Part shown: in pieces, positions 20,583-43,904 of the stretch
Position numbering within the stretch: position 1 is the first letter of the stretch
How the letters are laid out: each line of letters begins with the position of its first letter
Source of the DNA: a virus
Reading direction: 5' to 3' (one strand)
DNA: 46,906 bases
Virus record (IMG/VR): IMGVR_UViG_3300017779_000020
Location: 1-46,906 of that record
The notes under the pieces: model-generated
Database searches by the model: none
What the model was told of the DNA's origin: nothing
What the model saw: the letters and a program-made list of their open reading frames with translations, nothing else
Position numbers and translations under genes: made by a program

Positions 20583-20607
20583 TATATACTCCTCAATTCA
20601 TTTTATA

Positions 20608-21363: not shown

Positions 21364-21404
21364 TTCATAATCCTATCATATTTTAATATATTTGTCAAGC
21401 TTTA

Positions 21405-22073: not shown

Positions 22074-22091
22074 GTTATAATCTCCTAATTC

Positions 22092-22099
22092 TATTTATA
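22092..22099 (-). promoter_or_regulatory. Late promoter TATAAATA for the 222-aa gene
   Basis: Perfect late box 18 nt upstream of the start. It overlaps the last codons/stop of the methyltransferase gene. Confidence 0.8.
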
Positions 22100-22661: not shown

Positions 22662-23313
22662 AATTTTTCTTAATCTGTTTTAATAGTTTGTCATTAATGT
22701 GTTTTGGTATTGGTGGTTGTGATTTACCATATATTGATGTGGTATAAAAATCAAATGATATGCAAACTCTATCATCATCAGCATTATATTCTTTCAATAC
22801 ACCATGAGATATGTCACCTGGGAATAATATTATTTTACCAGGTTCTACCTTATATAAAACTGTGTTTTGTGTGAACTCATTAGCCACAAGTATAGGATCA
22901 TTCTTTCTATACTTTGCAAGATAAAGATTATCGTTTATATCTGTGCTGTTGATATATAACACGCCACTAATATATGCCTTTGAATGATTATGTTCAGAGA
23001 CCTTAGAACCTTTTTTAGCAAAATTGACCCACGACTTTCCTAAATATAAGAACTCTTTATCTAAATCTATCCCTCTCACTTTAGCATATTCGATAGCACG
23101 TTCTTCTATGTAATCAAATATCTTCTTAAATTTTTTATCGAAATGTATGTATGAATTTATTGTTGCAACACCTGTCTTTATATTACCTTGCACTAACAAT
23201 TCTTTATTATTGTCAGGTGTGTATTTTTTTAGATGAGGTATTAGAGACCTTAGGTGTGCTAGGTCTTTATAATGCTCATAATATATTGGTGTAGGAAACC
23301 ACTTTTGTATCAT
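22654..23313 (-). CDS. 2OG-Fe(II) oxygenase, PF13759-like
   Basis: 219 aa. Begins with the family opening WFPTPIYYEHY, has KSWVNFAKKGS then SEHNHSKAYISGVLYI (His108/His110), IILFPGDISHGV (His170) and DRVCISFDF (Arg182). This is the phage 2OG-oxygenase layout: HxH-type metal motif, distal His, and Arg for 2-oxoglutarate. Follows directly on the last adhesin gene, with only a weak AATAAATA box and no strong ribosome site. First of four oxygenases in 4.1 kb. Confidence 0.82.
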   Translation of the reverse strand: MIQKWFPTPIYYEHYKDLAHLRSLIPHLKKYTPDNNKELLVQGNIKTGVATINSYIHFDKKFKKIFDYIEERAIEYAKVRGIDLDKEFLYLGKSWVNFAKKGSKVSEHNHSKAYISGVLYINSTDINDNLYLAKYRKNDPILVANEFTQNTVLYKVEPGKIILFPGDISHGVLKEYNADDDRVCISFDFYTTSIYGKSQPPIPKHINDKLLKQIKKNYD

Positions 23314-23323: not shown

Positions 23324-23331
23324 TATTTATT
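23324..23331 (-). promoter_or_regulatory. Possible late box AATAAATA for oxygenase-methyltransferase pair
   Basis: One-base variant overlapping the stop codon of the last adhesin gene and 10 nt before the oxygenase start. Because TAATAAATAA also arises from the stop codon context, this is a weak call. Confidence 0.35.
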
Positions 23332-25000: not shown

Positions 25001-25003
25001 GCG

Positions 25004-26758: not shown

Positions 26759-26761
26759 CTA

Positions 26762-28360
26762 TTAACTCCATTGTAATGATACACCGTGTATCTTCACTTG
26801 ATTATTAGCCAAAGCGAGTTTCCATCTCATAGACTGACCTGAAGGTTGTCCTGAGATAGTTGCTTGGCCAGTTAAAATTCTTTGACCACTTGATCCTGTG
26901 ACATATCCTGAATCTGTTAAAGTAGCAGTCGTAAAGTTTGATCCACCATCTCTACTAATTGAAGCAATTACGTCTGTATTAAGTGTTGGACTATCTACAT
27001 TTTCTTCAAATACAACTATTCTACTTATTGTAGGAACAGTACCAGCAGCAAAAGCTTCTGAAACAATTGTCGTTGATGTAGCAGCCGCACAAACTGCTGC
27101 TGATGTAATTAAAACATAACCATCTTCACCCTTTACATTGTTAGTATTTGTATGTGAACCATCTTGTCCTGATTCATTTGTATCTGCAACATAAGCAGGA
27201 TCTGCTGTTCCACCACCTTCTAAACCTGCTGCTTCTTCAGTTGCACCTGAACTAATTTGTGGGTTACCAATATAACCTGAACCTCCACCAGCACCTCCAT
27301 GTTGACTACCTTGGTCAGTTCCTACACCACCACCATAGAATCCACCACCACCACCTGCCATAACAGCAGTAGCGCAGTTTGCAATTCCACCATACATGAA
27401 ACCACCTGAAGCAGCTTCACCACCTGGTGTTGAACCACCTTGACCACCAGCAGTTTGAGAACCTCCACCAGCATAACCATTTGGACTTTTACCTGGTGTT
27501 GCTTGTCCTTTAGAAGTTTGTTCAGCGGATTCAGATGTTGCACCTTCACAACTACTTTGACCTCTGTCACCTTGAAGACCACCACCTCCACCACCAATAG
27601 TAAATACTGTGTTGCTACAACTACCAGCTGCACCTCCGCCGCCTCCAGCAGCGATAGCAAAACCTGATGTTGGGAATGTATTACTTGGACCTGGTACAAA
27701 TTGAGGATGACTAACTTCAACAGGACCTGCTGTTATAAATGATCCCCCTCCACCACCACCAGTATTAGGATTTAGAGGACCAGTAGTTGATCCTTCTCCA
27801 CCACCACCTAAAGTAATTCTATCATATGGTTGAGGACCTTCAGCACCTTCACCTGGACCAGCACCTTCGCCAACTACTATATCTAATACTTGACCTGCTG
27901 TCACAGCATAATTACCTGAAGAAAAACCTCCTGCACCACCAGAACCATAATTTTTTGTTCCACCACCACCTGCAGCCCAAGCTTTTAAAGTGACACTTGT
28001 TATACCTGCTGGTACTGTAAATGTTCCAAACGTACCTGTACCATATTGTGGATTTGTTGCTGTTGTTGATGTTTGTGGTTCTGTAATTGCTGTTGTTGAA
28101 AAACCTGCAGATAATCCTGCGACTGATACTCCAGTATTTGTATTAGAGTTAATATAATAATCTGAATCTGCAACATATCTATCGTTAGAACCTTCACCTT
28201 CGTCTGTACCACTTTCATCATGGAATTCATCTACTACTCCGTCAACCAGATTAAAGACAGTTAAACCTTCGTTTACTGCTATCTTAAAACCTAATAGTGA
28301 TATGTTAAATTCATTGTCTTCAGTTTTTCCAGAAGCAAGTAATCTTGTTTTTAGTCCCAT
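26762..28360 (-). CDS. Glycine-rich adhesin paralog D (532 aa)
   Basis: Fourth array member and the one with the shortest N-terminus: only about 22 residues before ISLLGFKIAVNEGLTVFNLV. SQTAGG subtype (YAGGGSQTAGGQGGSTPG), with cysteines in GSCSNTV, SSCEGA, IANCATA and AAVCAAA. The peptide GNPQISSGATEEA deviates from the GHPQITSGST of the others. Common C-terminal domain ends KIHGVSLQWS. The ribosome site AAGGAG lies just upstream; transcribed from the 203-aa gene's promoter. Confidence 0.85.
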   Translation of the reverse strand: MGLKTRLLASGKTEDNEFNISLLGFKIAVNEGLTVFNLVDGVVDEFHDESGTDEGEGSNDRYVADSDYYINSNTNTGVSVAGLSAGFSTTAITEPQTSTTATNPQYGTGTFGTFTVPAGITSVTLKAWAAGGGGTKNYGSGGAGGFSSGNYAVTAGQVLDIVVGEGAGPGEGAEGPQPYDRITLGGGGEGSTTGPLNPNTGGGGGGSFITAGPVEVSHPQFVPGPSNTFPTSGFAIAAGGGGGAAGSCSNTVFTIGGGGGGLQGDRGQSSCEGATSESAEQTSKGQATPGKSPNGYAGGGSQTAGGQGGSTPGGEAASGGFMYGGIANCATAVMAGGGGGFYGGGVGTDQGSQHGGAGGGSGYIGNPQISSGATEEAAGLEGGGTADPAYVADTNESGQDGSHTNTNNVKGEDGYVLITSAAVCAAATSTTIVSEAFAAGTVPTISRIVVFEENVDSPTLNTDVIASISRDGGSNFTTATLTDSGYVTGSSGQRILTGQATISGQPSGQSMRWKLALANNQVKIHGVSLQWS

Positions 28361-28376
28361 ATTTCTATTTATCTCC

Positions 28377-28988
28377 TTAGATTGGTAGATACCTCACTCT
28401 TATTTCAGCACTTGCACTAGGTGGAGTACTAAAAGTTAATGTTGTTCCTGATAATGTGTAGTCATCACTAGGATGAAATACTACACCATTGACGGTTACT
28501 AGAATATCGTTTTGTGTTCTACCACTAGTACCGATTGTAAAACCTGTTGTTGAACCATCACCTGCTAAATTTGCATTTACTGAATATGCTAATGTAGTTG
28601 CGATATTAGATTTCTGTATTTTTTTTAATGAGGTAGTAGATGTGTCGTATATTAATAATAAATCATCATCAGCTGCAAGGGCAGATAATTCTGTTTGTCC
28701 TGTGATTGCGCCTGTGCCTAGTATAGAGCCAGCGTCAAATGCTACGCCTAAAAATATGACAAATATATCTTCACCAGATTCTGGTGCAGCTGAGAACACT
28801 ATTGTTGTACCACCACTTGCGATATTGTAAGCAGTCTCAGGTTCTTGTAATACTCCTGATACAGATACAAGTATTGCACTTGATGAACCTACTGTATAAT
28901 TAAGAGTGAATGTAGTTGTAGAACCATCTGCTGTGAAATCTTGTTTTTCAAATGTTCCTGCAACAGGTGTCTTTCCTATATATGCCAT
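28377..28988 (-). CDS. Free-standing fibre-attachment-module protein (203 aa)
   Basis: Begins MAYIGKTPVAG, like the N-terminus of adhesin A (MAYIGKSPST). Contains two copies of a beta module: FTADGSTTTFTLNYTVG...SGVLQEPETAY (about 18-83) and LAGDGSTTGFTIGTSG...NGVVFHPSDDYTLSG (about 141-200), joined by a linker with AADDDLLLIYDTSTTSLKKI common in marine phage fibres. A Gly-rich tip is absent. It may be the adaptor or stalk that carries the neighbouring adhesins, which lack this module. Perfect late promoter upstream. Confidence 0.78.
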   Translation of the reverse strand: MAYIGKTPVAGTFEKQDFTADGSTTTFTLNYTVGSSSAILVSVSGVLQEPETAYNIASGGTTIVFSAAPESGEDIFVIFLGVAFDAGSILGTGAITGQTELSALAADDDLLLIYDTSTTSLKKIQKSNIATTLAYSVNANLAGDGSTTGFTIGTSGRTQNDILVTVNGVVFHPSDDYTLSGTTLTFSTPPSASAEIRVRYLPI

Positions 28989-29016
28989 ATACTAAAAATC
29001 CTTTTTCTTATAATAC

Positions 29017-29024
29017 TATTTATA
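29017..29024 (-). promoter_or_regulatory. Late promoter TATAAATA for 203-aa protein and adhesins D-F
   Basis: Perfect late box 28 nt upstream of the 203-aa gene, in the gap after adhesin C. It divides the adhesin array into two transcription units (A-B-C and D-E-F). Confidence 0.8.
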
Positions 29025-29033
29025 ATCATTTTA

Positions 29034-30698
29034 TTACGCCCAGGCTAATGAAACTCCGTGTATTTTTACTTTCTTATTTGCAAGTGCTAACTTCCATCTC
29101 ATACTTTGACCACTTGGTTGACCACTAATAGTTGCCTGACCTGTTAATATTCGTTGCCCACTTGAACCAGTGACGTATCCACTATCACTTAAAGTTGCGT
29201 TTGTAAACGTACTACCACCATCTCTACTAATTGAAGCAATAACATCCGTATTTATTGTAGGTGTTTCAACGTTTTCTTCAAACACAACTATACGAGATGA
29301 TGTAGGTACACTACCAGCGGCAAAAGCATTTGATACGATTGTTGTTGAAGAAGTAACTAAAGTTGTTGCTGTACCACTTATTAAAACATATCCATCATTA
29401 CCGTGTGGTACGGGCATGTCAGGATATGAGTTGCCAGCTTCATCAACGTGAGCGTCATTTGTACCTGCTACATATTGAGGTATTGAAACTCCACCACCCT
29501 CTGTACCAGCGCCTTCTTCGGTTGAACCTGAAGTAATTTGTGGGTGACCATAATAAGATGAACCACCACCTGCTGATGAACCAAATGAACTTGGTTGTAA
29601 TAAAGGGCCACCACCACCTCCGTAATATCCTGATCCTCCACCTGGAGTATAAGTAGCGTCACCACTTGGTGGAGCACCTGCTCCTCCTGTAAATAAAGCT
29701 CCTACTACACCAGTGTAAGCAGGTCCGTTAGGATTTGCATAAACACCACCACCTTGTTCTTGGTCTCCTCCACCTCCACCACCTGCTTGTGGACTATAAT
29801 TAACTTGTTCCGACTGAGTTGACCCAGCGTCACCTATTAATCCCCCACCAGCACCACCTGGATTAGATTCTTGGAATGGTGGTGATTTCCAACCTCCACC
29901 TCCACCAGAACCTGCTATTACATAAGCTTGAGGAGCACTTGATAATGCTGGTTCAGTTGTTGCTGGAGCCACAAATACACCTGACAATCCACCACCACCT
30001 GAAGATCCTGGACCACCACCACCTAGTCCACCTCTTTCTCTTAAATTTGGTGTGTCTATCACTCCACATGTTGCTCTGGAACCACCTTCACCAACTACAA
30101 CTGCTAAAGCTTGTCCAGCAGTCACGGCAAGTGTACCCTCAGCATAACCTCCACCACCACCATCTCCTAAATAAGTTGAACCACCTGCTGATCCCCAAAC
30201 TTTTAAATCTACACTTGTAGCACCAGTCGGTACTGTAAAAGTACCAAATGTTCCTTCACCAATTTGTGGATTAGTACCTGCTGTTGATGTGTCTGCTTCT
30301 GTGACTGTTGTTGTTGTAAAACCTGCTAAAAAAGGTGCTGGAGAAGGCACTTCATTTTGATAAAAGTCACTTGAAGCACAATAGGTATCATTTGATCCTT
30401 CAGCCTCATCTGTTCCTGACTCATCATGGAATTCATCTACAACACCATCTACTAAATTAAACACCGTTAAATTTTCATTAACAGCCATCTTAAATCCAAG
30501 TAAAGATACGTTAAATTTTGCGTCTGTTAGACTCGCACAAGCATTTGTTAATGTTGTTGAGATTGCAGCTAAACCTGCTGTTTTAGAATCAACAATAGCT
30601 GCACTAGGACTTATATCAGCATTTACTATTGTGTTATCAACAATTTTATCTGAAGTGACTGTGTTGCTTGGAAGTTTTTTTATTTTAGTAAGTGCCAT
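29034..30698 (-). CDS. Glycine-rich adhesin paralog C (554 aa)
   Basis: Third array member, DQE subtype. The N-terminus has the fibre linker IVNADISPSAAIVDSKTAG, followed by SLLGFKMAVNENLTVFNLV and EFHDESGTDEAEG. The Gly-rich centre includes LSSAPQAYVIAGSGGGGGW and GGGGGGDQEQGGGV, then YYGHPQITSGSTEEG and the shared C-terminal domain ending KIHGVSLAWA. Starts 3 nt after paralog B. Function as a receptor-binding tip is inferred from the Gly-rich domain type. Confidence 0.85.
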   Translation of the reverse strand: MALTKIKKLPSNTVTSDKIVDNTIVNADISPSAAIVDSKTAGLAAISTTLTNACASLTDAKFNVSLLGFKMAVNENLTVFNLVDGVVDEFHDESGTDEAEGSNDTYCASSDFYQNEVPSPAPFLAGFTTTTVTEADTSTAGTNPQIGEGTFGTFTVPTGATSVDLKVWGSAGGSTYLGDGGGGGYAEGTLAVTAGQALAVVVGEGGSRATCGVIDTPNLRERGGLGGGGPGSSGGGGLSGVFVAPATTEPALSSAPQAYVIAGSGGGGGWKSPPFQESNPGGAGGGLIGDAGSTQSEQVNYSPQAGGGGGGDQEQGGGVYANPNGPAYTGVVGALFTGGAGAPPSGDATYTPGGGSGYYGGGGGPLLQPSSFGSSAGGGSSYYGHPQITSGSTEEGAGTEGGGVSIPQYVAGTNDAHVDEAGNSYPDMPVPHGNDGYVLISGTATTLVTSSTTIVSNAFAAGSVPTSSRIVVFEENVETPTINTDVIASISRDGGSTFTNATLSDSGYVTGSSGQRILTGQATISGQPSGQSMRWKLALANKKVKIHGVSLAWA

Positions 30699-30701
30699 GC
30701 G

Positions 30702-32501
30702 TTAACTCCATTGAAGAGCCACGCCGTGTATTTTTACTGTATTAGTGGCCAGTGCCAGTTTCCATCTCATGGATTGTCCACTAGGTTGACCTGAAATTGT
30801 GGCTTGACCTGTTAAAATTCTTTGTCCTGATGATCCAGTGACATATCCTGAATCTGATAATGTAGCAGTTGTAAATGTTGATCCACCATCTCTGGATATT
30901 GAAGCAATTATGTGTGTATTAAGTGTAGGAGATTGAACATCTTCCTCAAATACAACAATTCTACTTGTAGTAGGAACAGTACCAGCAGCAAAAGGATTAG
31001 ATATTATAGTTGAGTTACCACCACCTGGAGCACCAAATGCACTAAATGGTCCTGTCAATAACATATAACCGTCTTCTCCATTACTAGTTTCAGTACCACC
31101 TTCGTTTGTACAAGCAACATATGAACCTATGGCTGTACCACCACCTTCACAATTTGATCCTGCTTCTGTTGAACCTGAAGTTATCTGTGGGTGACCAATA
31201 AAAGATGACCCTCCGCCACCTCCACCTGAAATACCTGGTTCCCAACCACCTCCACCACCACCGTAGTATCCAGCACCTCCACCACTACCTACGTTATAAT
31301 TATTTCCTTCACACACATAGTTATTACCACCATAGAATAATCCACCATCTTCGGCATTACCAGGGCCAGGGGCAGGAGAGGCAGAAGATCCACCTTGTCC
31401 ACCAGCAGTCTGACTTCCTCCACCACCATGTGGAGTACCTGATGTACAACCTGGGTGTGATGTAAATGTATTTACCCTATTAGTTTGAGCTTGATCACCA
31501 GTTGCATATCCGTGAGGACCACCACCTGCACCACCTGGAGAAGCTGCAGTTTCTGGATTGAAGTCTGGTCTATCATAGTTAAATGTTCCACCACCACCTG
31601 CACCTGCGATTAAAGCAGCAGTTGGTGCACCGCCTGATAATGCAGCTGTGAAAATACCTGATAATCCACCACCGTGTCCGTTCTCACCCTTACCTGGAGT
31701 ACCTGATAAACAAGAACTACAAGGTGAAACTCCACCACCTCCAGCAACTTCTGGTTGCGAAGCGGAAGCTAATCTTTCTGGAGAAGGTCTGTATCCTCCG
31801 ATACCACCATGTGAATATGAAGCAGTATTTAAGTTACCAAAACCTAGACCACCTTCACCTACAACAACTGTAAGTGCTTGACCAGGTGTCACAGCAAGAG
31901 TACCTTCAGAGTAACCACCTCCACCACCATGTGCTTTACAATCTCTTCCTGAACCTTCACTAATAGAACCACCTTGACCTCCACCACCAGCACCCCAAGC
32001 AAATATATTTACCGAGGTCATACCATTAGGTACAGTAAATGAACCAAATGTTCCTGCGGCTATGATTGGGTTTGTACCTGCTGTTGATGTATCAGCCTCT
32101 GTGACTGCTGTTGTTGTAAATCCAGCAGAAACACATCCTGCTGTTAAATTATTTGAATAAACATCATTAGTAGCACAATAATGATCGTTAGAACCTTCAC
32201 TTTCGTCCGTTCCAGACTCGTCATGGAATTCATCTACAACACCATCTACTAAATTAAATACTGTAAGGCCATCATTTACGGCCATCTTAAATCCTAATAA
32301 AGCGATATTTTGTTCAACAGCACCTACTGTACTATTAATACTAGTGGCTGTTGCACATAGAGTAGCAATACCTGGTGCTTTAGAACTTGCAATCGCAGCT
32401 GAAGGCGATATGTCTGCATTTACAATAGTACCATCTACTATATTGTCTGAAGTGACAGCAGATTGACCTATTGATCCTTGTTTAATTTTATTAAGTGCCA
32501 T
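30702..32501 (-). CDS. Glycine-rich, cysteine-containing adhesin paralog B (599 aa)
   Basis: Second array member, SQTAGG subtype, the longest of the five that lack the attachment module. N-terminal linker IVNADISPSAAIASSKAPG, then ALLGFKMAVNDGLTVFNLV. About eleven cysteines, including SPCSSCLSG, HPGCTSG, YVCEGN and SNCEGG inside the Gly-rich loops, an unusual number for a cytoplasmically assembled phage protein. Ends with the common domain and VKIHGVALQWS. Neighbours: a 64-aa gene upstream and paralog C 3 nt downstream. Confidence 0.85.
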   Translation of the reverse strand: MALNKIKQGSIGQSAVTSDNIVDGTIVNADISPSAAIASSKAPGIATLCATATSINSTVGAVEQNIALLGFKMAVNDGLTVFNLVDGVVDEFHDESGTDESEGSNDHYCATNDVYSNNLTAGCVSAGFTTTAVTEADTSTAGTNPIIAAGTFGSFTVPNGMTSVNIFAWGAGGGGQGGSISEGSGRDCKAHGGGGGYSEGTLAVTPGQALTVVVGEGGLGFGNLNTASYSHGGIGGYRPSPERLASASQPEVAGGGGVSPCSSCLSGTPGKGENGHGGGLSGIFTAALSGGAPTAALIAGAGGGGTFNYDRPDFNPETAASPGGAGGGPHGYATGDQAQTNRVNTFTSHPGCTSGTPHGGGGSQTAGGQGGSSASPAPGPGNAEDGGLFYGGNNYVCEGNNYNVGSGGGAGYYGGGGGGWEPGISGGGGGGSSFIGHPQITSGSTEAGSNCEGGGTAIGSYVACTNEGGTETSNGEDGYMLLTGPFSAFGAPGGGNSTIISNPFAAGTVPTTSRIVVFEEDVQSPTLNTHIIASISRDGGSTFTTATLSDSGYVTGSSGQRILTGQATISGQPSGQSMRWKLALATNTVKIHGVALQWS

Positions 32502-32516
32502 TAATATCTCTCTTTA

Positions 32517-32711
32517 TTAACTAATTTTTGTGCCGAAATAACCAGTAGCATTATCAATTTTTCTTGTTTCACCATCCTTGTTAGGGTCATAGACGTTATC
32601 TTGGCTGTCATCTAACTTGATAGCATTACTATCTTTGTTAGAGCCTGAAACAATCTTAATCTTTGCACCTGCTTGAGGTCTAGTTCCGACTTTTGTAATT
32701 CTTTGTACCAT
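32517..32711 (-). CDS. Small protein between adhesins A and B (64 aa)
   Basis: Not recognised. Hydrophilic, with RITKVGTRPQAGAKIKIVSG and a KLDDSQDNVYDPNKDGETRK segment; no membrane or signal sequence. Spacing of 9 nt from adhesin A and 15 nt to adhesin B, with a GGAGAATAA ribosome site, supports a real gene. Position suggests an accessory, such as a chaperone or connector, for the adhesins, without direct evidence. Confidence 0.6.
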   Translation of the reverse strand: MVQRITKVGTRPQAGAKIKIVSGSNKDSNAIKLDDSQDNVYDPNKDGETRKIDNATGYFGTKIS

Positions 32712-32720
32712 TTATTCTCC

Positions 32721-34682
32721 TTATGCCCATTGTAGCGATACACCGTGTACCTTAACGGAATTATTCGCAAGAGCCAGTTTCCATCTCATAGACTGACCTG
32801 ATGGTTGTCCTGATATGGTCGCCTGACCAGTTAAAATTCTTTGACCACTTGTTCCTGTGACATAACCACTATCCGCAAGGGTAGCAGTTGTAAAGTTTGA
32901 TCCACCGTCTCTACTAATTGAAGCAATAATATCTGTATTGAGTGTAGGTGTTGCCACATTTTCCTCAAATACTACTATCCTTGATGTAGTAGGTACTGTA
33001 CCAGCAGCAAAAGGTTCTGAAACAATTGTTGTTGCAGTAGCTGAAGCTGCTTGAGAAACTGTTATAAAAACATATCCGTCTTCACTACCTGTTGGAGAAC
33101 CCTCATTAGTGTCAGCAACATAAAGTGGTTGATCTACACCACCACCTTCTTCCCCAGCACCTGCCTCTGTTGAACCTGAAGTTATTTGTGGATGACCATA
33201 GTAAGATGATCCACCTCCACCACCTTTATCAGTAGATTGTCCACCACTTGTTCTTGCACCTGCACCACCACCATAATAACCTGCACCTCCACCTCCAGCA
33301 CTATACCTTGATGTAGGAGAAGCACCTGTAGCACCTGAAAATAAAGTACCATCATTAGCACTTGGTTCATCTACACCGTGACCACCAGCCTCTTGGTCTC
33401 CACCACCTCCACCACCAGAAGCAGAACCACAATTTGAAAAAGTAAATGGGCCACCAAAAGGACCTGCTTGACCACCAGTAAGACCTCCACCAGCACCACC
33501 TTCATTGTCATTACCAGAAGCACCACCTGAACCTGCAATAACGTAAGCTTGTGGGGCTGAATATTGAGGAGCTGATAATGGAACTAAATCAGCAGCAAAT
33601 ACGCCTGATAGACCACCACCTCCACCAGCATAATAAGTAGATGGTCCACCTGAACCACTAGTTGCACCACCATTTAAAAAAGCTGATTCAAGCGAGTCAT
33701 CATTTTGAGATCCGCCACCTTCACCTGCAATAATATGTAAAGTTTGACTGGCTGTGACAGCAAGAGTACCTTCTGCATAACCACCGCCTGCACCGCCTGC
33801 TGCTTGACCAGAGTAACCACCAGAAGCACCCCATACAGCAATATTAACCGAAGGAGTACAAGCAGGTACAGTAAATGTTCCCATAGCACCTTCACCATAC
33901 GCAGGATTATTTCCTGCTGTTGATGTTTGTGGTTCTGTGATTGCTGTTAAAGAAAATCCTGCTGATATAGGAGTTGTAGGCGAACCATCAGGTGTCGTAC
34001 TATTAATGTAATAGTCACTAGAAGCATTATATAAATCGTTTGAACCCTCTGCCTCGTCTGTTCCTGATTCATCATGGAACTCGTCAACTATACCGTCAAC
34101 AAGATTGAATACTGTAAGGCCTTCATTTACGGCCATTTTAAATCCTAATAAAGAAATATTAAATGCGTTTGTATCTATTAAATCTGTTGGCATAGCACCG
34201 TATGTTCTATCACCTCTTAAAAATACACTAGCACTACCTGGTGCTGATAAGGCAGAAATATTTACTTTACTTGCAGTTGTTATACTTGCAAGTTTACTAT
34301 CAGCGATGGCTGCACTTGCATTAAGATCAGCATTAACAATCGCCCCATCAGCAATCTTCGCTGATGTAATTGTACCGTCACCTACTTCAGTTATATTTGT
34401 GGCTTCGAAAGTTGTGATGACATAAATCTCGTCTGAAGCGTCTGGCGCCGCTGTAAATGTAATTCTTTTTAGATCACCTGATCCATCATTACCTACTGTG
34501 AACGCATTTGAAGCGCCTGGTTTTTGTCTTACGTTGTTTACAAATACTTGTAATCCGTTTTCACCACCTGCAGGTATTATATTCGCTAGATCAAATGCAA
34601 CAGTAGAACCATCACCTGTGAAGGTATCTACTTTAGCTGCTGCCGAGAACTTTGTACTCGGTGATTTTCCTATGTATGCCAT
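32721..34682 (-). CDS. Glycine-rich tail fibre/adhesin paralog A with attachment domain (653 aa)
   Basis: First array member and the only one with a full N-terminal attachment region: MAYIGKSPST then the beta module around DTFTGDGSTVAFDL (1-92), the linker IVNADLNASAAIADSKLAS (115-133), and FLRGDRTYG. From about 175 it follows the common plan: ISLLGFKMAVNEGLTVFNLV, EFHDESGTDEAEG, a Gly-rich centre of about 280-520 (VPLSAPQYSAPQAYVIAGSG shared with F; GGGGGGDQEAGG), YYGHPQITSGSTEAG and the C-terminal domain. Probably the fibre that links the array to the baseplate. Host-receptor binding is inferred. Confidence 0.87.
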   Translation of the reverse strand: MAYIGKSPSTKFSAAAKVDTFTGDGSTVAFDLANIIPAGGENGLQVFVNNVRQKPGASNAFTVGNDGSGDLKRITFTAAPDASDEIYVITTFEATNITEVGDGTITSAKIADGAIVNADLNASAAIADSKLASITTASKVNISALSAPGSASVFLRGDRTYGAMPTDLIDTNAFNISLLGFKMAVNEGLTVFNLVDGIVDEFHDESGTDEAEGSNDLYNASSDYYINSTTPDGSPTTPISAGFSLTAITEPQTSTAGNNPAYGEGAMGTFTVPACTPSVNIAVWGASGGYSGQAAGGAGGGYAEGTLAVTASQTLHIIAGEGGGSQNDDSLESAFLNGGATSGSGGPSTYYAGGGGGLSGVFAADLVPLSAPQYSAPQAYVIAGSGGASGNDNEGGAGGGLTGGQAGPFGGPFTFSNCGSASGGGGGGDQEAGGHGVDEPSANDGTLFSGATGASPTSRYSAGGGGAGYYGGGAGARTSGGQSTDKGGGGGSSYYGHPQITSGSTEAGAGEEGGGVDQPLYVADTNEGSPTGSEDGYVFITVSQAASATATTIVSEPFAAGTVPTTSRIVVFEENVATPTLNTDIIASISRDGGSNFTTATLADSGYVTGTSGQRILTGQATISGQPSGQSMRWKLALANNSVKVHGVSLQWA

Positions 34683-34691: not shown

Positions 34692-35060
34692 TTATACGTC
34701 TTCTAATACAGAAACAATTGCGTCACAAGCACTTGCCGTGCCTGATGATATTCTTAATACATCAGCTGCTGATCCAGTATTTTGTAAAACTAGTTTGTTT
34801 CCTGCCATAACCTCTAATGAGGATCCTGCGGGTATCGTAGCATTTTTTACAATATGCACGTCATTTGAGCCTGCGTTGTTATCTAAAAACACACTTGCTG
34901 TTATACCAGCAGATGATGTGTTTGATATTGTGATACCAATAACAATTGACTCTAACGCACTTGAACCTGCCCCAGCGGGTACTGAATATACAGCACTAGC
35001 AGAAGCACCTGTTGATGTATTTACGTTTGTTACCGCAAATCTTTTAAAATCGTTAGCCAT
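34692..35060 (-). CDS. Conserved beta-rich virion protein, 122 aa
   Basis: No enzyme motif. Pattern FKRFAVTNVNTS, ALESIVIGITISNTSS, ITASVFLDNN, HIVKNATIPAGSSLEVM, NKLVLQNTGSA and a terminal CDAIVSVLEDV. Similar small beta-sandwich proteins occur among structural proteins of marine T4-likes (general recollection). It opens the transcription unit of adhesins A-C under a perfect late box whose predicted leader begins AAAGGAAT. Likely a fibre- or baseplate-associated protein. Confidence 0.75.
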   Translation of the reverse strand: MANDFKRFAVTNVNTSTGASASAVYSVPAGAGSSALESIVIGITISNTSSAGITASVFLDNNAGSNDVHIVKNATIPAGSSLEVMAGNKLVLQNTGSAADVLRISSGTASACDAIVSVLEDV

Positions 35061-35085: not shown

Positions 35086-35889
35086 TTATCCTAAAGCGAC
35101 TGCCTGAGCAATCGCAAAAGCATTTGACGCAAAAGTTTGTGTTGCGCCTGTTGATGTCACAAAAGTTATATCTTGTAGAACTTTTGAGTTTACCCCAACT
35201 CTATTACCCATATAGCCGTGTGAACTACATTGATAATATAAAATATGTGGTGTAGTGTCGGCAACTACTATTTGAGTATATGCCCCAGCACTACCAGGTG
35301 TGCCATTTGTTGTCACTCCTGTTGAAAAAGCAGTAGTTTTCGCAGGATCATAATAGAATAATAATGGGTGACCACTATTTGAACCATCTGCCTGATCGAA
35401 TCTATATGTATTACCTGCTTTTAATTCTAAAAACGGCGATTCTACACCGTCTAAAGTATAACCATTAGCTGAACCTGTGCCATGATATATGTGGGCAGAG
35501 GTTTTACTAATAACTTTAACAACAACATCTGTATATGTGTTAGAACCATCAGCATTATGTTTCGTACTTAATAGATCAAAACTGTGAGTTGCAAGACTAG
35601 TGTTAACTGATAGAGTTAATGTATCTGTAGCAGACACAGCCGCCGTTATACCTGAGGTACCAGTCACAGTCATAGTATTTCCTGCAACTACTGTTTGTGT
35701 TGTAGAGCCATCTGATAATACGAAACCTGTAGCAGAAACAGACGTATTAATCTCGTTGATCGCAGCTACGATAGTCTTGGCAGTTGTACCAAGTGTTGCT
35801 GGATCCCCTATATCAGTTCCTGACAGACTATTAAAACTAGTCCTAAAACCTTCTAGTGTACTTGTTGTTGCTACATTTCTTGCGGCCAT
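35086..35889 (-). CDS. Virion protein with cupredoxin-like domain (267 aa)
   Basis: N-terminal part (1-100) is fibre-like (EGFRTSFNSLSGTDIGDPAT, TAKTIVAAINEIN). Residues about 120-235 form a plastocyanin-like unit: LELKAGNTYRFDQADGSNSG leading to His174 (SGHPLLFY), then HILYYQCSSHGYM with Cys221, His224 and Met227. This is the H...C-x2-H-x2-M arrangement of type 1 copper sites. The C-terminus ends AIAQAVALG. Cupredoxin-like domains in marine phage structural proteins have been noted before; whether copper is bound is untested. Follows the 79-aa gene and shares the gp8 transcription unit. Confidence 0.82.
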   Translation of the reverse strand: MAARNVATTSTLEGFRTSFNSLSGTDIGDPATLGTTAKTIVAAINEINTSVSATGFVLSDGSTTQTVVAGNTMTVTGTSGITAAVSATDTLTLSVNTSLATHSFDLLSTKHNADGSNTYTDVVVKVISKTSAHIYHGTGSANGYTLDGVESPFLELKAGNTYRFDQADGSNSGHPLLFYYDPAKTTAFSTGVTTNGTPGSAGAYTQIVVADTTPHILYYQCSSHGYMGNRVGVNSKVLQDITFVTSTGATQTFASNAFAIAQAVALG

Positions 35890-35890: not shown

Positions 35891-36112
35891 TTACTTTACT
35901 ATCTTCCTTACTAACTCTTTTATTTCTCTTAATTCACTCTTTAGATTATTTATTTCTTTTACGGCACTTCTCAATTGATCGGATTGTTTCTCTCTCACTT
36001 TAATCCTTTTCATATAAAGTTGATATTCAGTTTGATTAGTGTTGATAATAGCATTACTATTTACATCTCTAACTAAATTTGTGTGTCCCTGAACTTTTAC
36101 TATATCACTCAT
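35891..36112 (-). CDS. Small coiled-coil protein (73 aa)
   Basis: I choose the start MSDIVKVQGHTNLVRD at 36112, right after the DUF4815 stop, over an ATG six codons upstream (36130) that would overlap that gene. N-terminal part contains LVRDVNSNAIINTN; the C-terminal half (EKQSDQLRSAVKEINNLKSE and on) is a clear coiled coil. Small proteins of this design accompany the DUF4815 protein in marine T4-likes in my recollection. Probably a minor baseplate or fibre component. Confidence 0.72.
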   Translation of the reverse strand: MSDIVKVQGHTNLVRDVNSNAIINTNQTEYQLYMKRIKVREKQSDQLRSAVKEINNLKSELREIKELVRKIVK

Positions 36113-36113
36113 A

Positions 36114-39100
36114 TTATACCGCCAAAGCAATTCCTCTAAAATCTTTTATTCTTGCTGTATAGGAACTATTAGTTCCTCTAAAGACAATTTTAATTTGAAA
36201 TGAACTAAACTCTGATAAATTATTTACACTAAATTTATAATCTTTAAAATCTATATCTTGTACTTGATCTCCAGTAGATGGTGCAATCGTTGTATCAGAC
36301 GAACCATCTGTATTAAATGGAGTATATTCTATGTCGTCAATTTTTCTAGTTTCTTCACCACCAGTTGTTCTAAAGAAACATTTGATAGATGAAGATGATC
36401 TTACACTTGCAGCTACCGTTATATTTAATGCTGTTGAAGCATTTGCAAGGTTAACTGGTTTTGTGATGTAAGCACCAGCTGATGAACCACCCTCTACAGC
36501 AAAGTCTTCTACAAAATCTACCGTGTTTGTAATTTTAGCAATTACTTTTGCGCCTGAAGCAGGTGCACTAACCATTGTTAATGTTGTACCTGATACTGTA
36601 TAATCAACAACTGCTGATAATCGTTTACCAGATTTGGTTACAGCCATTATGTGAACATCACTTGGTGTTCCTGATAATGTAAATGCTGTTGTTGAACCAT
36701 CGCCTGTAAATGTATTAGTAGATGATACCGTTGGGTTATTTAATCTGTTTGATATTGCAAACATATTTAATCTTTTTACATCAATAACTGGTGATAAGTT
36801 TTGATTTTTAGAACTGATAGTCATATTAGAAACAAAAGATACAGAACCTGACATCTCATTAGTTTGATTTATACCACTAGCAACCAATTGTGGTGTTGTA
36901 AAGTATATATTATCACCTAACACAACAGACCTAGTAGATGTTGTGCCTTTTAGAGAGAATGGTGTTTCTGATCCGTGTACAGATTTACCACTTGTTGTTC
37001 TTACATTTGCAGTCAAAGTTGTTTCTGGATGTACAACGTGACCAGTTTGCATTTGCATAACATCAAATAATCTGTTTTGTGTTGCAGTCACACTTGAACC
37101 ACCAACATCTCCAGTTGCGTTTGCAGCTCCACCAGCAACTACATCATAAGAGTCTAATGTTATATTTTTAATAGTTGTATATGTACCATTAATATTACTA
37201 TGAGCAATACCATTATATGTACCAGCAGATATTCCTGCAATTGTCACGTTATCTGTTGTAGCGTGCATACCATGATTTTTATGAAATATTCTTACAGTTG
37301 TTGAACCATTAAATGTTCTAATAGGATTAGCAGCAAGCGTTTTTACAGGAAGAGTTTTGTTTGCAAGCGTTACCGTACCAGATGATGTTGTGTCAAATAC
37401 TGCTTTCTTTAATTTAAATTTTAAGTCCTCAGTTTGTTCTGGTGTCCATGTTCTATAATTAGATGATTTAAATAATACACCACCTGTTGGTTGTGTTGAT
37501 ACCGTTCTATTACCATCTAATGTTGTGCCACCTAGTTTAGAAATATAAGTTGTGTAATCTGTTGAATCTGAATATAAAATTAAACAATACTCTAAACCTT
37601 CTTGTAAGAATACTGGTGAATTAAATGTAAATGTTGTTGCAGTTGCACCATCTGTACTTGTATTGACTGAACTAGGATTTAAATATTTTTGTGAGAAAGG
37701 TAATAATTCCTGACTAGGATATCCATTTACCATTGTTCTTATTTCTGCTCTTACAGGAATAGTAGATGATTTTGTTGCAAAGAAAGCGTCAATTGAAGTT
37801 GCAAATATTCCACCTTCTTCGTCTACCATAAATGATTGAGCTAATGGATCAGGATCTCTATCTCGTCCTCCACCACCTCTATCGTTATTATTACTAGGTG
37901 GATTTATATTTACTACTGATCTACTTGCGACCCTACTTGTTGTTCTTCTTGTTGTAACCGATCTTCTTACGGTTCTGGATTCTCTAGTAGAAATGATTGC
38001 CTCTTGTACGGTCTCTAATAATCCTTTTGCGTCATAATCAGCTTCTGCTGATGTAGCGACTGCTGTTCTATCTACACTATTTGTAGATGAACTTGTTAAT
38101 CTGAATACTCTCTTACCTGTTCGCCATCTTGGATTAGATGTAGTATTAGGATCAGGTATTGCAAAAGTACCAGATACGGCACCATTAGCGTCTGTTGTTA
38201 AGTTACCACCTAATGCACCACCTGATGGTGTCACATAAGCAGTAATTGATTGTTCATCAAAGAAAGGATGAACTCTAGTATTAGGTCTCAAACCTTGAGC
38301 AGTAAATGTAATTGTTCTTTCTCTAATAAAAGGTACAAATGCAACAGAGATAACTCTATTACCTAAACTTTGTCTAACTGCTTGAGGAACTATTAATGTT
38401 CTAACGCCTGCTCTTGTTTGAACCACGTCAACATTTGTAGTTGTAATTCTTTGATTACCTGAGGTTGTTGTATTCGTTCTAGGATTACCTGACCATTGAT
38501 CTTGCCATTCGTTCCATTCAGTTCCAACAGGTATTTCTGTCGTACTTGAATTATTTAAACCTCTATCTCTAGCAAGGTTATCAAATGATCCTGCTACATT
38601 AGCAACTATCTCAGGTGCTGTTCTAGTTTCTTTCCACTCATCAACAGGTGGATCTAATTCTATGTTTCCTATCCAATCAAATATTAAGAATGGATTTAAA
38701 TTTTCTGTCGCAGTAGCATATGGGTTTTCCATAAATGTAGTTTCTGTATATGGTAAGGTAACTAAATCACCAGTCTTTTGATAATTTGCAGCCGTTCTAT
38801 CAGCTTCTACTAATGTTGTCAAGTCATCATCTATTTCTTCTAATTCAATTACATCTTCATTAAATAATGTTCTACCTTCACCTCTACCTCTATCAATAGC
38901 AAGTTTGTAATCATTGTTGCCAACATCACCTACATTGTGACCAGTAAAGTTATCTACCACAAAACCATTTTTGAATCTATCAAATCCATCACTATCTTGT
39001 ATTTGTAAAGATTGTGCGTCTGCTTCTAATAAAGAAAGTTGAGTATAATATTCTATATTTTTAATTCTGTTTTCTAAAGAAGATATATCCCTCATAGTGA

Positions 39101-42100
39101 ATCGTTTATTATCTTCTTTTTTAATTACAACATCTCTGGTATCTAAAGTATATGATGGTATCTCTAGTGTTGCAATATGTAAATTACCATCCATCTCACC
39201 AGGTTCAATAGGATTTAAATCAGAAGCACCTTTTAATACTTTAATTCTTCCATCTCTAGTAATGAATAATTTGTCTATTCTATTTAAATAAAACTCTAAA
39301 TCTGAAGTTATATCATTACCAAATTCAGGAATATCAATAGTTGAAGCACCTGTGCCATCATAAGACCTATCATCTGTACCACTATTAATTGTTGAAGCGT
39401 CATCAACTCTTGGTCTAAAATCTAATACATCTCTTAACTCAAATTTATTACCAGTTGTATCTGAAGTATAACTAGGAATATCTTCATAATCTATAACACC
39501 AGAATATGAGTCGACATCAAAATAATCTCCAGCACCATGTGAGAAAAAATCAAACTTGACAAGTAATCTTCCAGTAGGAACAATAGCGCCTGGTTTTAAT
39601 TTAATTCTACCTATGTCATAGAAGTTATCTCTTTGACCTGTATCTAAATCAAATCTATCTGTAATATCTGTATCTGAAGCACTTGCAGTTGCACCAAAAC
39701 CACTTGACATGTAAACATTTTCTAATTTAAACACATCAGCTTTTCCTAATGGTATAACTCCTGACTCAATTACTGATTGAGTATTGATATTAACCGTTGA
39801 ATCATTATTAAGTGTTTTTGTTTTAGAGCCTGCAACTGTTCTACTTACTGTTGCAAGTATTTTAATTTTGTGACCATTAAAGTTTGCACCAAAGTCAAGG
39901 TTTAAAGTTTTACCTGTTGGTGAACCTGTTAGATTAAATATTGTATCGCCTTCATGGTTATTACCAGATAAATTTAAAGTATCTCCAACACCACCAGTAC
40001 CACCAGAACCTGTTGTCATTATTGATACAGAAAAATCATTATTTGCTAAAGAAGCAAATGTTTCATTTGTTCCTGAAGTAATTGTAGCGTCACCATTTGA
40101 TGACAATGTAGCAGTAAATTGTCTTCTTACATTAAAGTTTGTATCTGTTTGCTCAGAGTTTGCAGTTGTCTTTAACGTCTTAACCGTGTTATAAGGTAAT
40201 TTAAATACTAATGAATTATTTTCAGGATTATTTAATAAAGCTCTTCTTCTTGTTAAGACAGCGGCAGTTGTGACATCTGAACCACCAACAGCAACTGTTA
40301 ATGTTGCTTCTGTTTGTGATATAATATTTTGTACAATTCTTGTTATAGTTGAACCAGCATTATTTGTAAATGATATTGAGTCGCCTATTTTTAAATCTGT
40401 TGTAAAGTTTGTACCTTTACCTAAAAGTTGTTTTGAACTATTTGCAATTGAAATATTACCTGTAATAGTTTCATTTGTTGCATATGTATTTGTTAAATCA
40501 GCGTCAGCAGTATAAGTAGGAGAACCTGCCATACCTAATTGTTTGACAGCACTTACTTCTCTTGTTAAAAATCCTTTTCTACCAATAGTGTTTGCTTGAA
40601 TTGTTGCAGTATTATTTGATGTTTGACCAACAATAGTTTCTCCTGCACTAAACTCACCTTTTACATTTGAAACTACAACAACACCATGTTTTAATGTAGG
40701 CATTGAAGAAGTTGAGGTTACAGCTTGAGCAGTAAGACCATCAGCACTAAACAATTCAAAAGTATTTGTTGTAGCGTTTCTTACACAATAAGTTCCTGCT
40801 GTGTATGCAGTAGAATTTATTTGAAATGAACCACCTGATACATTAATTTGTTGACCGTCTACAAATCCATGAGCATTTAAAGTGACAACACCAGGACTAG
40901 CACTTGTTATTGATGTTGCAGCTGCAGATTTTGTTGTAGATATAGATTGAACAACAGCAGTTGCGTTTGACGTTGTGCCTGTAATTATTTCACCAGTAGT
41001 AAATGATGTTGCTTCAATTGTGTTAATATGAGAAAACATTTCAATATCAAATAGAAAATGTTTCCATATATTACTTGTTGCGAAAATATCATTTGACTCA
41101 GTACCAGTTGAATATTCAAAACCTCTACTTTTTGCTCTACCAATTTGTGGCACAGTTGTACCAACTGTTGATACTTGCGTACCTCTAACAGCAGTAGCAG
41201 TATCATATAGATTAATATTTTTAAATGCAGCTACATCACCTGATACAAAACCTATATCAGGAGTGCCGTAAACATTGTTAACACTTACAAAGTTGTCAAC
41301 TGTAAATCTTGTTTTATTATTATTTGCAGTATCAAAATCCCTAGCCTTTTCTACATCAATATAGAAAGTTGAAAGTATCTCAGCTTCATAACCTTTAACA
41401 TATGCTTTAAATGGCGAAACACCAACTGCTAATAAAGCATTTGAAGCTGTACCACCGTCACCTGTTGTAGCGCCGTTTGTATAAATTCCTCTGTTGTTTC
41501 CTGATATAGCAGACTCTCTGACATCAAAATCAGGATTACTTAAAGTATAATCTCCTGACTCGTCAAATGTTCTTCTTGCTAATGTTTCTTCTAAAACAGC
41601 ATACTCTGTTGCTCTCACCATCGTTCTAATAGCACCACTTTCAACTCTAGCAATTTCTATAAAATTTGAGTCTTCAGTAGAAGCTAAAGTTTTCTTTGCA
41701 AGTGCTAATGTAATTTTTAATCTATGAGCACCAGGTGCGTTTACGTTAGAAGAACCTTGAGCATTATCGTTTAATGAACTATCGTCACCAGGTGTTGTAA
41801 AAGCCTCTGTGACTTGTAAGCCAATTCTGTATGAAGGACTATTTGTATATTTATCCAGTATGATTGACTCTGAACTTACATTAACAAAAAAACCATTAAT
41901 GTAGTAAGTGCCTGCTTCTACAGCAGCTGCAGAACCTGTTGCAGTTGTATCAACAACTACTGTTGGACTACCTGAACCTGAAGATGTTAAAGTTTCACCA
42001 TCAGAAAATACTGTTGCTGTATTATTTGTACCTGTTTTTGTGTATTTAACAAAAAGTGTATCTGGATCAGTACCATCAGTTGCAGATACTTTTACAACGG

Positions 42101-42413
42101 TTGCAACCAAACCTGAAGTACCACCAGTCATTGTAGTGTTTAAATATGTGTCTAAAGAAGAAACTGATTTAGAGGATAACTTAACAGCATAATAATTAGT
42201 ATCTATTGATAGTTGTCCTGGTAATATCATGGCACCAGATTTAAATAAATGGTCTCCCATTTTTTCAATCTGATTTTGAGTAATTGTTTGACTTTGTGTT
42301 AGCTCTCTTGCTTGAACAGCAAATGCTGGTCTAAACAATATTCTATGAAAATTCTTCGATTCTGAAAAATCATCATGGTATGGACTGACATTAAAATCAG
42401 TTGGTGATGGCAT
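36114..42413 (-). CDS. Giant DUF4815 baseplate/fibre structural protein (2099 aa)
   Basis: Largest gene here. The N-terminus FHRILFRPAFAVQARELTQS with QIEKMGDHLFKSGAMILPG is the DUF4815 signature. Central region holds repeated GE.I.G.TSN.TA modules; the later part has DPLAQSFMVDEEGGIFATSI, IPVRAEIRTMVNGYPSQELL and PVFLQEGLEYCLILYS, typical of the large marine T4-like structural proteins (VrlC-like). Residues about 1897-1964 contain the TGDGSTTAFTL beta module also found in adhesin A and the 203-aa protein. It ends IKDFRGIALAV. Occupies the T4 gp9-gp10 position, so probably the baseplate platform for fibres. Confidence 0.9.
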   Translation of the reverse strand: MPSPTDFNVSPYHDDFSESKNFHRILFRPAFAVQARELTQSQTITQNQIEKMGDHLFKSGAMILPGQLSIDTNYYAVKLSSKSVSSLDTYLNTTMTGGTSGLVATVVKVSATDGTDPDTLFVKYTKTGTNNTATVFSDGETLTSSGSGSPTVVVDTTATGSAAAVEAGTYYINGFFVNVSSESIILDKYTNSPSYRIGLQVTEAFTTPGDDSSLNDNAQGSSNVNAPGAHRLKITLALAKKTLASTEDSNFIEIARVESGAIRTMVRATEYAVLEETLARRTFDESGDYTLSNPDFDVRESAISGNNRGIYTNGATTGDGGTASNALLAVGVSPFKAYVKGYEAEILSTFYIDVEKARDFDTANNNKTRFTVDNFVSVNNVYGTPDIGFVSGDVAAFKNINLYDTATAVRGTQVSTVGTTVPQIGRAKSRGFEYSTGTESNDIFATSNIWKHFLFDIEMFSHINTIEATSFTTGEIITGTTSNATAVVQSISTTKSAAATSITSASPGVVTLNAHGFVDGQQINVSGGSFQINSTAYTAGTYCVRNATTNTFELFSADGLTAQAVTSTSSMPTLKHGVVVVSNVKGEFSAGETIVGQTSNNTATIQANTIGRKGFLTREVSAVKQLGMAGSPTYTADADLTNTYATNETITGNISIANSSKQLLGKGTNFTTDLKIGDSISFTNNAGSTITRIVQNIISQTEATLTVAVGGSDVTTAAVLTRRRALLNNPENNSLVFKLPYNTVKTLKTTANSEQTDTNFNVRRQFTATLSSNGDATITSGTNETFASLANNDFSVSIMTTGSGGTGGVGDTLNLSGNNHEGDTIFNLTGSPTGKTLNLDFGANFNGHKIKILATVSRTVAGSKTKTLNNDSTVNINTQSVIESGVIPLGKADVFKLENVYMSSGFGATASASDTDITDRFDLDTGQRDNFYDIGRIKLKPGAIVPTGRLLVKFDFFSHGAGDYFDVDSYSGVIDYEDIPSYTSDTTGNKFELRDVLDFRPRVDDASTINSGTDDRSYDGTGASTIDIPEFGNDITSDLEFYLNRIDKLFITRDGRIKVLKGASDLNPIEPGEMDGNLHIATLEIPSYTLDTRDVVIKKEDNKRFTMRDISSLENRIKNIEYYTQLSLLEADAQSLQIQDSDGFDRFKNGFVVDNFTGHNVGDVGNNDYKLAIDRGRGEGRTLFNEDVIELEEIDDDLTTLVEADRTAANYQKTGDLVTLPYTETTFMENPYATATENLNPFLIFDWIGNIELDPPVDEWKETRTAPEIVANVAGSFDNLARDRGLNNSSTTEIPVGTEWNEWQDQWSGNPRTNTTTSGNQRITTTNVDVVQTRAGVRTLIVPQAVRQSLGNRVISVAFVPFIRERTITFTAQGLRPNTRVHPFFDEQSITAYVTPSGGALGGNLTTDANGAVSGTFAIPDPNTTSNPRWRTGKRVFRLTSSSTNSVDRTAVATSAEADYDAKGLLETVQEAIISTRESRTVRRSVTTRRTTSRVASRSVVNINPPSNNNDRGGGGRDRDPDPLAQSFMVDEEGGIFATSIDAFFATKSSTIPVRAEIRTMVNGYPSQELLPFSQKYLNPSSVNTSTDGATATTFTFNSPVFLQEGLEYCLILYSDSTDYTTYISKLGGTTLDGNRTVSTQPTGGVLFKSSNYRTWTPEQTEDLKFKLKKAVFDTTSSGTVTLANKTLPVKTLAANPIRTFNGSTTVRIFHKNHGMHATTDNVTIAGISAGTYNGIAHSNINGTYTTIKNITLDSYDVVAGGAANATGDVGGSSVTATQNRLFDVMQMQTGHVVHPETTLTANVRTTSGKSVHGSETPFSLKGTTSTRSVVLGDNIYFTTPQLVASGINQTNEMSGSVSFVSNMTISSKNQNLSPVIDVKRLNMFAISNRLNNPTVSSTNTFTGDGSTTAFTLSGTPSDVHIMAVTKSGKRLSAVVDYTVSGTTLTMVSAPASGAKVIAKITNTVDFVEDFAVEGGSSAGAYITKPVNLANASTALNITVAASVRSSSSIKCFFRTTGGEETRKIDDIEYTPFNTDGSSDTTIAPSTGDQVQDIDFKDYKFSVNNLSEFSSFQIKIVFRGTNSSYTARIKDFRGIALAV

Positions 42414-42431: not shown

Positions 42432-43904
42432 TTAAAATTCAATGATAAGTTTAACATTTTCAGTTTGGTCAGTTGCCCTTGTAATAGGTGCTCTGTTTTC
42501 AATGTACATGACATCGCCAGAGTCAGCGTCTAATTCTGAAGCAGAATAACCTGAAGTAAATGAAGAACCATTTACAGTTGAACTGAAACTAGTATCTGGT
42601 GTACCTGTAGGTGTTGAACCTCCAACTCCTGACACTACATTAGCGCCAGAGAAAGCAGTTTGATTACCATTAGTATCTACACCCTCATCATTAAATCTTG
42701 TTTGAATATAATATAAAACTCTATTTGTTGAATCGTATTCTACAACTTTACCAACAGCGCCAGTAGTTGCCTGATTGATTTCTTGGTCAACAGTAAATGC
42801 ACCTGGTGTTGGAGAAGAAGCAAATCTAATTGCCTTAGTTGCTCTTAATGTAGTTGCACTTGCAGCTGATCCACCCGAAGTTGGATCTCTTAATAATGCG
42901 ACTCTTCTAAAATCGTTTGCAGCTGATACGTCTGAACCTGATCCTGATTCAACACCTTCAAATGATGTATTCAACATTACGAAAAATCCACCTAATTCTT
43001 TGATTGCGTTCTTACCATGACCACCTTTTGGTTCTACCATAATATCTATCTCAGCACCACTTAAACTTGTAGCACCTGCTGATACTATGTCAGCGTTTCT
43101 AATATATGCAAAAGTGTATCCTGTTCCTGGAGTTGTGATAGCCACTGCTGTCACAGCACCACCAGATACAGTCACAGTTGCGACACCAGAAGCACCGTCA
43201 CCTCTGATTGCAACACCTGTGTGAGTACCATTTGATCCACCAGATCCTGCAGTTTTAATCTTTGCGATATTAACAGCACCATCTACAGCGGCTGCAGCTA
43301 CAGTTGAGTTAGTTGCGACTGCCATAAAGTCTGTTGATAAAAAGTTTGCTTGTTGTGAAGCAGATAAAGTGTACATATATTTCCACTTGTATCCATCTCC
43401 AGTTGTTAAAATTGATGTTGAAGTGCCAGTAGGTTCAACTGTTGAAGCAGTATTATTATCATTTTCTAAACATTTGTAAACATTAAATGCGGAAGACATA
43501 ACATAAAATGTTGAGTCAAATAGATTAGTTGCGCCAGAGTTTGCAGCCTGAGTGGTTGTACCACCTGTGACTCTTCTACCATAATCTGGTCTGTAATAAT
43601 CATAAGTTGTTCCTGTTGTCCAGTTTCTTCTTGGTATTACAAATGAAGTATCTGAACTGGCTACTTTTTTAGCCGCTATTGCATCATCAAAAGTAAAAAA
43701 TTCTGTTTCTATTGCGTCTGCTGGTGTTAAAGGTGCACTATCAGAACCTTCGTTATCTGTTCTACTATCACCTCTTGTTGATGTTGCGAAAGCCTGTGGT
43801 CTTCCTAACAACATGTAATACACATTTGCGCCTGACTCTGAAAAAGATTCAGAGAATTGCTCAGAATTGTGTATTCTAAATTTGTTGGTTACTATTGCTG
43901 GCAT
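42432..43904 (-). CDS. gp8: Baseplate wedge protein gp8
   Basis: 490 aa (T4: 334). Matches gp8 at both ends: IVTNKFRIHNSEQF (T4 IVTSKFRTEKMLNF), VIPRRNWTTG (T4 VIPRRDWGDT), GDGYKWKYMYTLS (T4 GDGYVWEYLFEIP), and the C-terminus DVMYIENRAPITRATDQTEN (T4 EMIYMENRPPIIMAMDQTEE). Extra length lies in the middle, including a GGAVTAVAITTPGTGYTF element resembling repeats in the upstream 873-aa protein. Has its own perfect late box. Confidence 0.93.
   Translation of the reverse strand: MPAIVTNKFRIHNSEQFSESFSESGANVYYMLLGRPQAFATSTRGDSRTDNEGSDSAPLTPADAIETEFFTFDDAIAAKKVASSDTSFVIPRRNWTTGTTYDYYRPDYGRRVTGGTTTQAANSGATNLFDSTFYVMSSAFNVYKCLENDNNTASTVEPTGTSTSILTTGDGYKWKYMYTLSASQQANFLSTDFMAVATNSTVAAAAVDGAVNIAKIKTAGSGGSNGTHTGVAIRGDGASGVATVTVSGGAVTAVAITTPGTGYTFAYIRNADIVSAGATSLSGAEIDIMVEPKGGHGKNAIKELGGFFVMLNTSFEGVESGSGSDVSAANDFRRVALLRDPTSGGSAASATTLRATKAIRFASSPTPGAFTVDQEINQATTGAVGKVVEYDSTNRVLYYIQTRFNDEGVDTNGNQTAFSGANVVSGVGGSTPTGTPDTSFSSTVNGSSFTSGYSASELDADSGDVMYIENRAPITRATDQTENVKLIIEF

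Follow-up and report, generated by a model that had tools for sequence, protein, structure and literature searches.

A putative tail protein of a T4-like marine phage carries a cupredoxin domain with a type 1 copper ligand set

Results

A tail-module gene encodes a cupredoxin domain with four candidate copper ligands

The window, the whole 46,906-nucleotide stretch of viral DNA that was analysed, contains within its tail module a gene for a tail-fibre-like protein with a cupredoxin domain and a complete type 1 copper ligand set (Table 1). The ligand residues are conserved as a unit, and the domain follows an N-terminal module shared with proteins of related phages. The first-pass annotation had read the ligands from the sequence as His174 and C221-x2-H224-x2-M227, preceded by the usual beta pattern. 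The open reading frame at 35086–35889 (minus strand, 267 amino acids) is confirmed, its translation has the four residues at exactly these positions, and the strands of an AlphaFold model reproduce the beta pattern. The ligand loop reads Cys221-Ser-Ser-His224-Gly-Tyr-Met227. Cys221 is the sole cysteine of the protein and a disulphide or zinc-ribbon reading was therefore rejected. No RNA families or tRNAs were found within the window.

Table 1. Parts of the cupredoxin-domain gene and its conserved neighbours in the window
Feature	Positions	Strand	Remarks
Glycine-rich fibre-like protein	32721..34682	-	conserved neighbour
122-aa protein	34692..35060	-	adjoins the gene in most nearest relatives
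Tail-fibre-like protein with distal cupredoxin domain (whole gene)	35086..35889	-	267 aa
C-terminal tail, aa 239-267	35089..35175	-	low confidence; ends in ...TFASNAFAIAQAVALG; kept in nearest relatives
Cupredoxin domain, aa 118-238	35176..35538	-	AF2 pLDDT, PDB fold matches, plastocyanin profile match
Met227	35209..35211	-	predicted axial ligand
His224	35218..35220	-	predicted copper ligand
Cys221	35227..35229	-	predicted copper ligand
His174	35368..35370	-	first predicted copper ligand, GHP motif
N-terminal module, aa 1-97	35599..35889	-	two helices followed by a low-confidence stretch; probably serves virion attachment
phrog_473 small coiled-coil-like virion structural protein	35891..36130	-	conserved neighbour
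Giant DUF4815/VrlC-like structural protein	36114..42413	-	conserved neighbour
Baseplate wedge subunit, gp8-like (phrog_438)	42432..43904	-	conserved neighbour

The predicted structure resembles those of known cupredoxins

AlphaFold was run on the whole protein with 50 family sequences. The resulting model has a pLDDT of about 97 over residues 118–237 (mostly 91–98 from 121 to 230) and low confidence over the N-terminal ~100 residues, while a model of the domain alone has a mean pLDDT of 89.4 and a pTM of 0.84. His174 is located two residues ahead of a strand, Cys221 at a strand end and His224 and Met227 in the loop preceding the next strand. The four ligands thus follow the cupredoxin order and occupy the correct loops. 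In Foldseek searches against the PDB, the best 50 listed matches were all cupredoxin-fold proteins for the whole-protein and domain models alike, in keeping with a Greek-key beta sandwich. They include rusticyanin (E 6.6e-5 to 1e-4, probability 1.00), plastocyanin (TM 0.59–0.60 by target length), amicyanin, nitrite reductases, laccases, CueO, coagulation factor VIII and the copper-less SufI. One of them, 2vmj, is a nitrite reductase whose copper loop was swapped for CTPHPFM, a C-x2-H-x2-M loop like that of the window protein. The fold matches are moderate (TM 0.4–0.6, about 0.45 by query; rmsd 5–6 Å; identity ~16%), values which, as far as a model can indicate, are as for a remote member of the cupredoxins. 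Pithovirus and Marseillevirus 'beta-sandwich proteins' in BFVD also match the domain model, two of them with a TM of 0.72–0.77 by target.

Searches of Pfam, NCBIfam and PDB sequences yielded no cupredoxin name for the domain, with the weak exception of a pseudoazurin match on the loop (E 0.19), indicating that the sequence link to cupredoxins is remote. A profile built from 65 family members aligned with a profile of 14 cyanobacterial plastocyanins over 84 columns (P 2.4e-4), keeping the four ligands in register, and the best of 20 column-shuffled control profiles reached a P of 0.06. This alignment needed the broad profile: for a narrower one of 26 sequences (A3 alone) only the loop aligned with plastocyanin, at a probability of 5%. 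No solved structures of podovirus relatives were found. Overall, the assignment of a cupredoxin domain is firm, and the combination of cupredoxin fold and type 1 ligand set is strongly supported.

The residue following the first histidine departs from that of most small blue copper proteins. Asn or Ser is usual at this place, where it provides an NH-S(Cys) hydrogen bond, and is not required. The window protein lacks it and has Pro175 instead, with proline found there in 86% of the 65 members. With Pro175, the cysteine sulphur would lose one of its usual hydrogen bonds, and the redox potential could shift. Multicopper oxidases also have a proline after the first histidine, so Pro175 does not disqualify a type 1 site.

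The ligand residues are conserved as a unit

His174, Cys221, His224 and Met227 are invariant across 54 aligned homologues, and the four ligands are kept in 61 of the 65 family members (reduced to below 70% identity). Across all loci examined, 229 of the 234 domains readable at all four places carry His-Cys-His-Met. The remaining five lack both the cysteine and the second histidine, while F164 and similar fold residues persist in them, and not one of the 234 has the cysteine without the second histidine or the reverse. Because these two residues are lost together, the ligands behave as a unit, as expected of a metal site, and metal binding would best explain the joint conservation and joint loss of Cys, His, His and Met in the sequences compared. 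The histidine codons differ synonymously among relatives and the domain has a dN/dS of ~0.04–0.29 (eight relatives).

Two larger homologue scans were seeded with ligand-free peptides and are thus free of selection for the motif. Their outcome was the same as that of one earlier scan with a motif seed, which rules out a motif-seeding artefact, and the conservation in the 54 homologues and the 65-member set rules out a chance motif. The pattern H-x25-75-C-x2-H-x2-M is present in 1 of the 62 window ORFs of at least 100 aa, and of 200,000 shuffled versions of the 267-aa protein 29 contain it, both post hoc counts for a pattern picked after being seen.

Ligand set and spacing are, by sequence, those of type 1 copper. 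Occupation of these residues by another metal, zinc, iron or only Cu(I) in a plain structural site, is unlikely in view of the Cys-His2-Met set, the invariant methionine and the C-x2-H-x2-M spacing, which together are a type 1 copper signature; methionine is rarely kept in zinc and iron sites. This reading does draw on the fact that cytoplasmic assembly offers zinc or iron ahead of copper and that the other metals of phage tails are iron and zinc.

Gene order and a modular N-terminus point to the tail

As the first-pass annotation had described, the gene lies between the DUF4815 giant and the fibre genes. The order of gp8-like wedge, DUF4815 giant, phrog_473, cupredoxin gene, 122-aa protein and glycine-rich fibre is conserved among the nearest relatives and is complete in L001–L004 and L008. 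PHROG matches of the 267-aa protein itself are tail fibre, baseplate wedge tail fibre connector and baseplate wedge. Its N-terminal module is common to Mosig_00098 (50% identity over aa 1–93, 98 columns), and aa 1–52 are common to gp059 of the pelagiphage HTVC008M (48% identity), a protein ending in a Peptidase_S74 fibre chaperone (E 1.7e-13). Both proteins are encoded at the same locus as the window gene and have different distal parts, with the cupredoxin domain absent from each. In the pelagiphage Mosig, the domain is part of a different putative fibre near baseplate genes. The same N-terminus with other distal parts and the presence of the Mosig domain in another fibre indicate that the domain moves between fibres. 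The window protein shows two hallmarks of a tail fibre, a constant N-terminal module combined with variable distal modules and a gene within a tail module with conserved tail neighbours. Its suggested place on the tail is supported by synteny, the shared fibre N-terminus and relatives on gp9, comparisons that make a tail location probable.

The tail sheath encoded in the window shares 73% identity with that of Pelagibacter phage Mosig, 59% with that of HTVC008M and 58% with those of the Methylophilales phages, and by these identities the host is likely a SAR11 bacterium. The surrounding region also has a run of large glycine-rich fibre-like genes (23330–34682), of which the four with a match to phrog_1589 or phrog_7388 appear to be paralogues. 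Four 2OG-Fe(II) oxygenase-like genes form a cluster behind the fibre genes (19217–23313). The 122-aa neighbour is related to structural proteins of S-TIM5-type phages.

Related domains are found in many marine phages and in Bacteroidota

A tblastn search with the window domain returned 59 phage records, nearly all of them named marine phages, and a second query returned 104. Existing annotations call the relatives tail fibre, structural, Ig-domain or hypothetical proteins. A related domain forms the C-terminus of gp9 (phrog_677) in T4-like cyanophages (including L210:132-1355 and L251–L256), and a gp9-type query returned 334 marine cyanophage records, mostly annotated as baseplate wedge tail fibre connector. 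The four ligands are kept in all seven gp9s that were read (S-CAM22, P-SSM4, Syn19, S-RIM14, ACG-2014d, S-H34 and P-SSM7). P-SSM7 gp9 joins an N-terminus that matches T4 gp10 and gp9 to the cupredoxin domain at its C-terminus. Unlike cyanophage gp9, the window protein has another N-terminal module, without a T4 gp9/gp10-like N-terminus, and a PDB search with it gave no T4 gp9 or gp10 match. In T4, the C-terminal part of gp9 bears the long tail fibre. By analogy, the cyanophage gp9 domain may do the same. The podoviruses P-GSP1 and P-SCSP2 and the pelagiphage HTVC028P also carry the domain. The baseplate wedge gp7 of P-HM1 (L204:1-5282) contains a divergent copy with a C-x2-H-x3-M-like spacing.

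The domain is also encoded by Bacteroidota. Members on several records, including an Arcticimaribacter chromosome (L217–L222), lie within very large open frames (4737 to 9219 aa) and keep the ligands, as do smaller proteins with apparent signal sequences (L248–L250). The smaller proteins join the domain to repeats resembling CHRD domains. One of them, L248, passes the cut-off of Pfam PF25489 (At5g54830-like domain; 28.3 vs 27 bits). The window domain has no match to this family, and those phage members of A3 that match it do so weakly (best E 0.0011).

Versions without ligands are found in another group of cyanophage fibres (Syn30, ACG-2014b, P-RSM4 and P-SSM4_026), for which a query returned 231 records. 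P-SSM4 has both forms, an intact gp9 and the ligand-less P-SSM4_026. A further ligand-less relative, the 113-aa ORF 080 of siphovirus P-SS2, was identified by mass spectrometry of purified virions, from an average of 9 peptides (PMC2784084), and is the sole family member with direct virion evidence met in this analysis. These losses, one of them in virions, imply that metal is unnecessary for the fold in general. They are also what a ligand-independent beta-sandwich would predict, in which the residues are kept for packing and the particle carries no metal; copper-less cupredoxin folds are known and SufI is among the fold matches. We nevertheless consider a metal-free site in the window protein improbable, given that the ligands are strictly kept together and lost together across hosts, kinds of virus and cellular proteins.

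Discussion

Among known systems, the window domain most closely recalls the small blue copper proteins amicyanin, plastocyanin, pseudoazurin and rusticyanin, with which it has in common the fold class, the order of secondary structures and a histidine followed by Cys-x2-His-x2-Met. The amicyanin loop CTPHPFM has the same spacing and length. The window domain differs in having HP for HN, in a long insertion between the first histidine and the cysteine and in an identity of only ~16%. Moreover, small blue copper proteins are free electron carriers of the periplasm or lumen, whereas the window domain is part of a tail protein. The HP at the first histidine is a likeness to the type 1 domains of multicopper oxidases, several of which are among the fold matches. 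Unlike these enzymes, the window protein has neither a second or third cupredoxin domain nor the HxH ligands of type 2/3 sites. Marine cyanophages are known to encode another cupredoxin, the plastocyanin petE (PMC3037559). In contrast to the window tail-module domain, petE is a stand-alone metabolic gene that serves the infected host and not a virion part, and the different gene context and architecture rule out an auxiliary plastocyanin here. Metal in other fibres is represented by the iron HxH sites of T4 gp37 and of Alteromonas phage R22Y, which were proposed to be structural or receptor-baiting and have been discussed for marine phages (PMC11705849). The likeness to these fibres is a protein-bound transition metal, predicted in the window protein, where a single-domain four-ligand copper-type site takes the place of octahedral iron.

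With moderate confidence, we favour a joint reading in which the gene product is a short protein of a T4-like pelagiphage, either a tail fibre or appended to the baseplate. Its constant N-terminal module would attach the protein to the tail and its distal part would be a swappable, outward-facing cupredoxin domain with the complete ligand set H174, C221, H224 and M227. A metal, most probably copper, may lock the ligand loop and stiffen the domain, which could then dock with the host surface or with a second fibre. A structural or adhesive role is more likely than an enzymatic one because the module is mobile between fibres, connectors and cell proteins that look secreted, and because loss of the site is tolerated in a virion. 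A counterpoint is that copper loading is not obvious for a protein assembled in a copper-poor cytoplasm.

The ligand set is equally that of electron-transfer cupredoxins, and rusticyanin, plastocyanin and amicyanin are among the best fold matches. This could suggest a redox-active or signalling copper that changes its oxidation state at the host surface, or a mimic of electron transfer that aids adsorption or triggers DNA release. We judge such a role quite improbable: no partner redox protein is seen, ligand-less versions persist in related fibres, and a structural or binding role better suits a domain that is shuffled between highly diverse fibres and cell proteins of secreted appearance. 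Copper scavenging by the particle, also raised in the first-pass annotation, likewise gained no support. The shape of a buried type 1 site is unsuited to handing over metal, and this, together with the occurrence of the domain in phages of very different hosts and the lack of evidence for a host receptor, makes it highly improbable that fibre copper baits a host metal-uptake receptor as a copper analogue of the Ferrojan Horse, despite the distal, swappable position of the domain and the proposal that iron HxH sites in tail fibres act in this way (PMC11705849).

The first-pass annotation had assumed that cupredoxin-like domains were already noticed in structural proteins of marine T4-like phages. 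Our full-text searches of open-access papers for blue copper proteins and other cupredoxins, plastocyanin included, in phages or their tail fibres yielded neither such a paper nor any account of the domain, and an earlier notice elsewhere is possible. The finding is also broader than first noted, as an intact type 1 ligand set is carried by a swappable tail module that is common in marine phages. Domains so far annotated as hypothetical or tail fibre gain a structural name. Intact type 1 ligand sets on phage tails would give the cupredoxin fold a new use and the tail a new metal.

Since the domain ends gp9 in 300-odd cyanophage records, the question of copper in attachment becomes testable in cultured phages, P-SSM4, Syn19 and P-SSM7 among them, and the intact gp9 and ligand-less P-SSM4_026 of P-SSM4 provide a natural pair for comparison. 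Tentatively, and with more doubt than conviction, we raise the idea that true blue-copper domains are parts of marine phage tails and that the site, in fibres and in most T4-like cyanophage gp9, acts in attachment or triggering. If true, marine virions would constitute a particulate copper pool and their tail function would be copper-sensitive.
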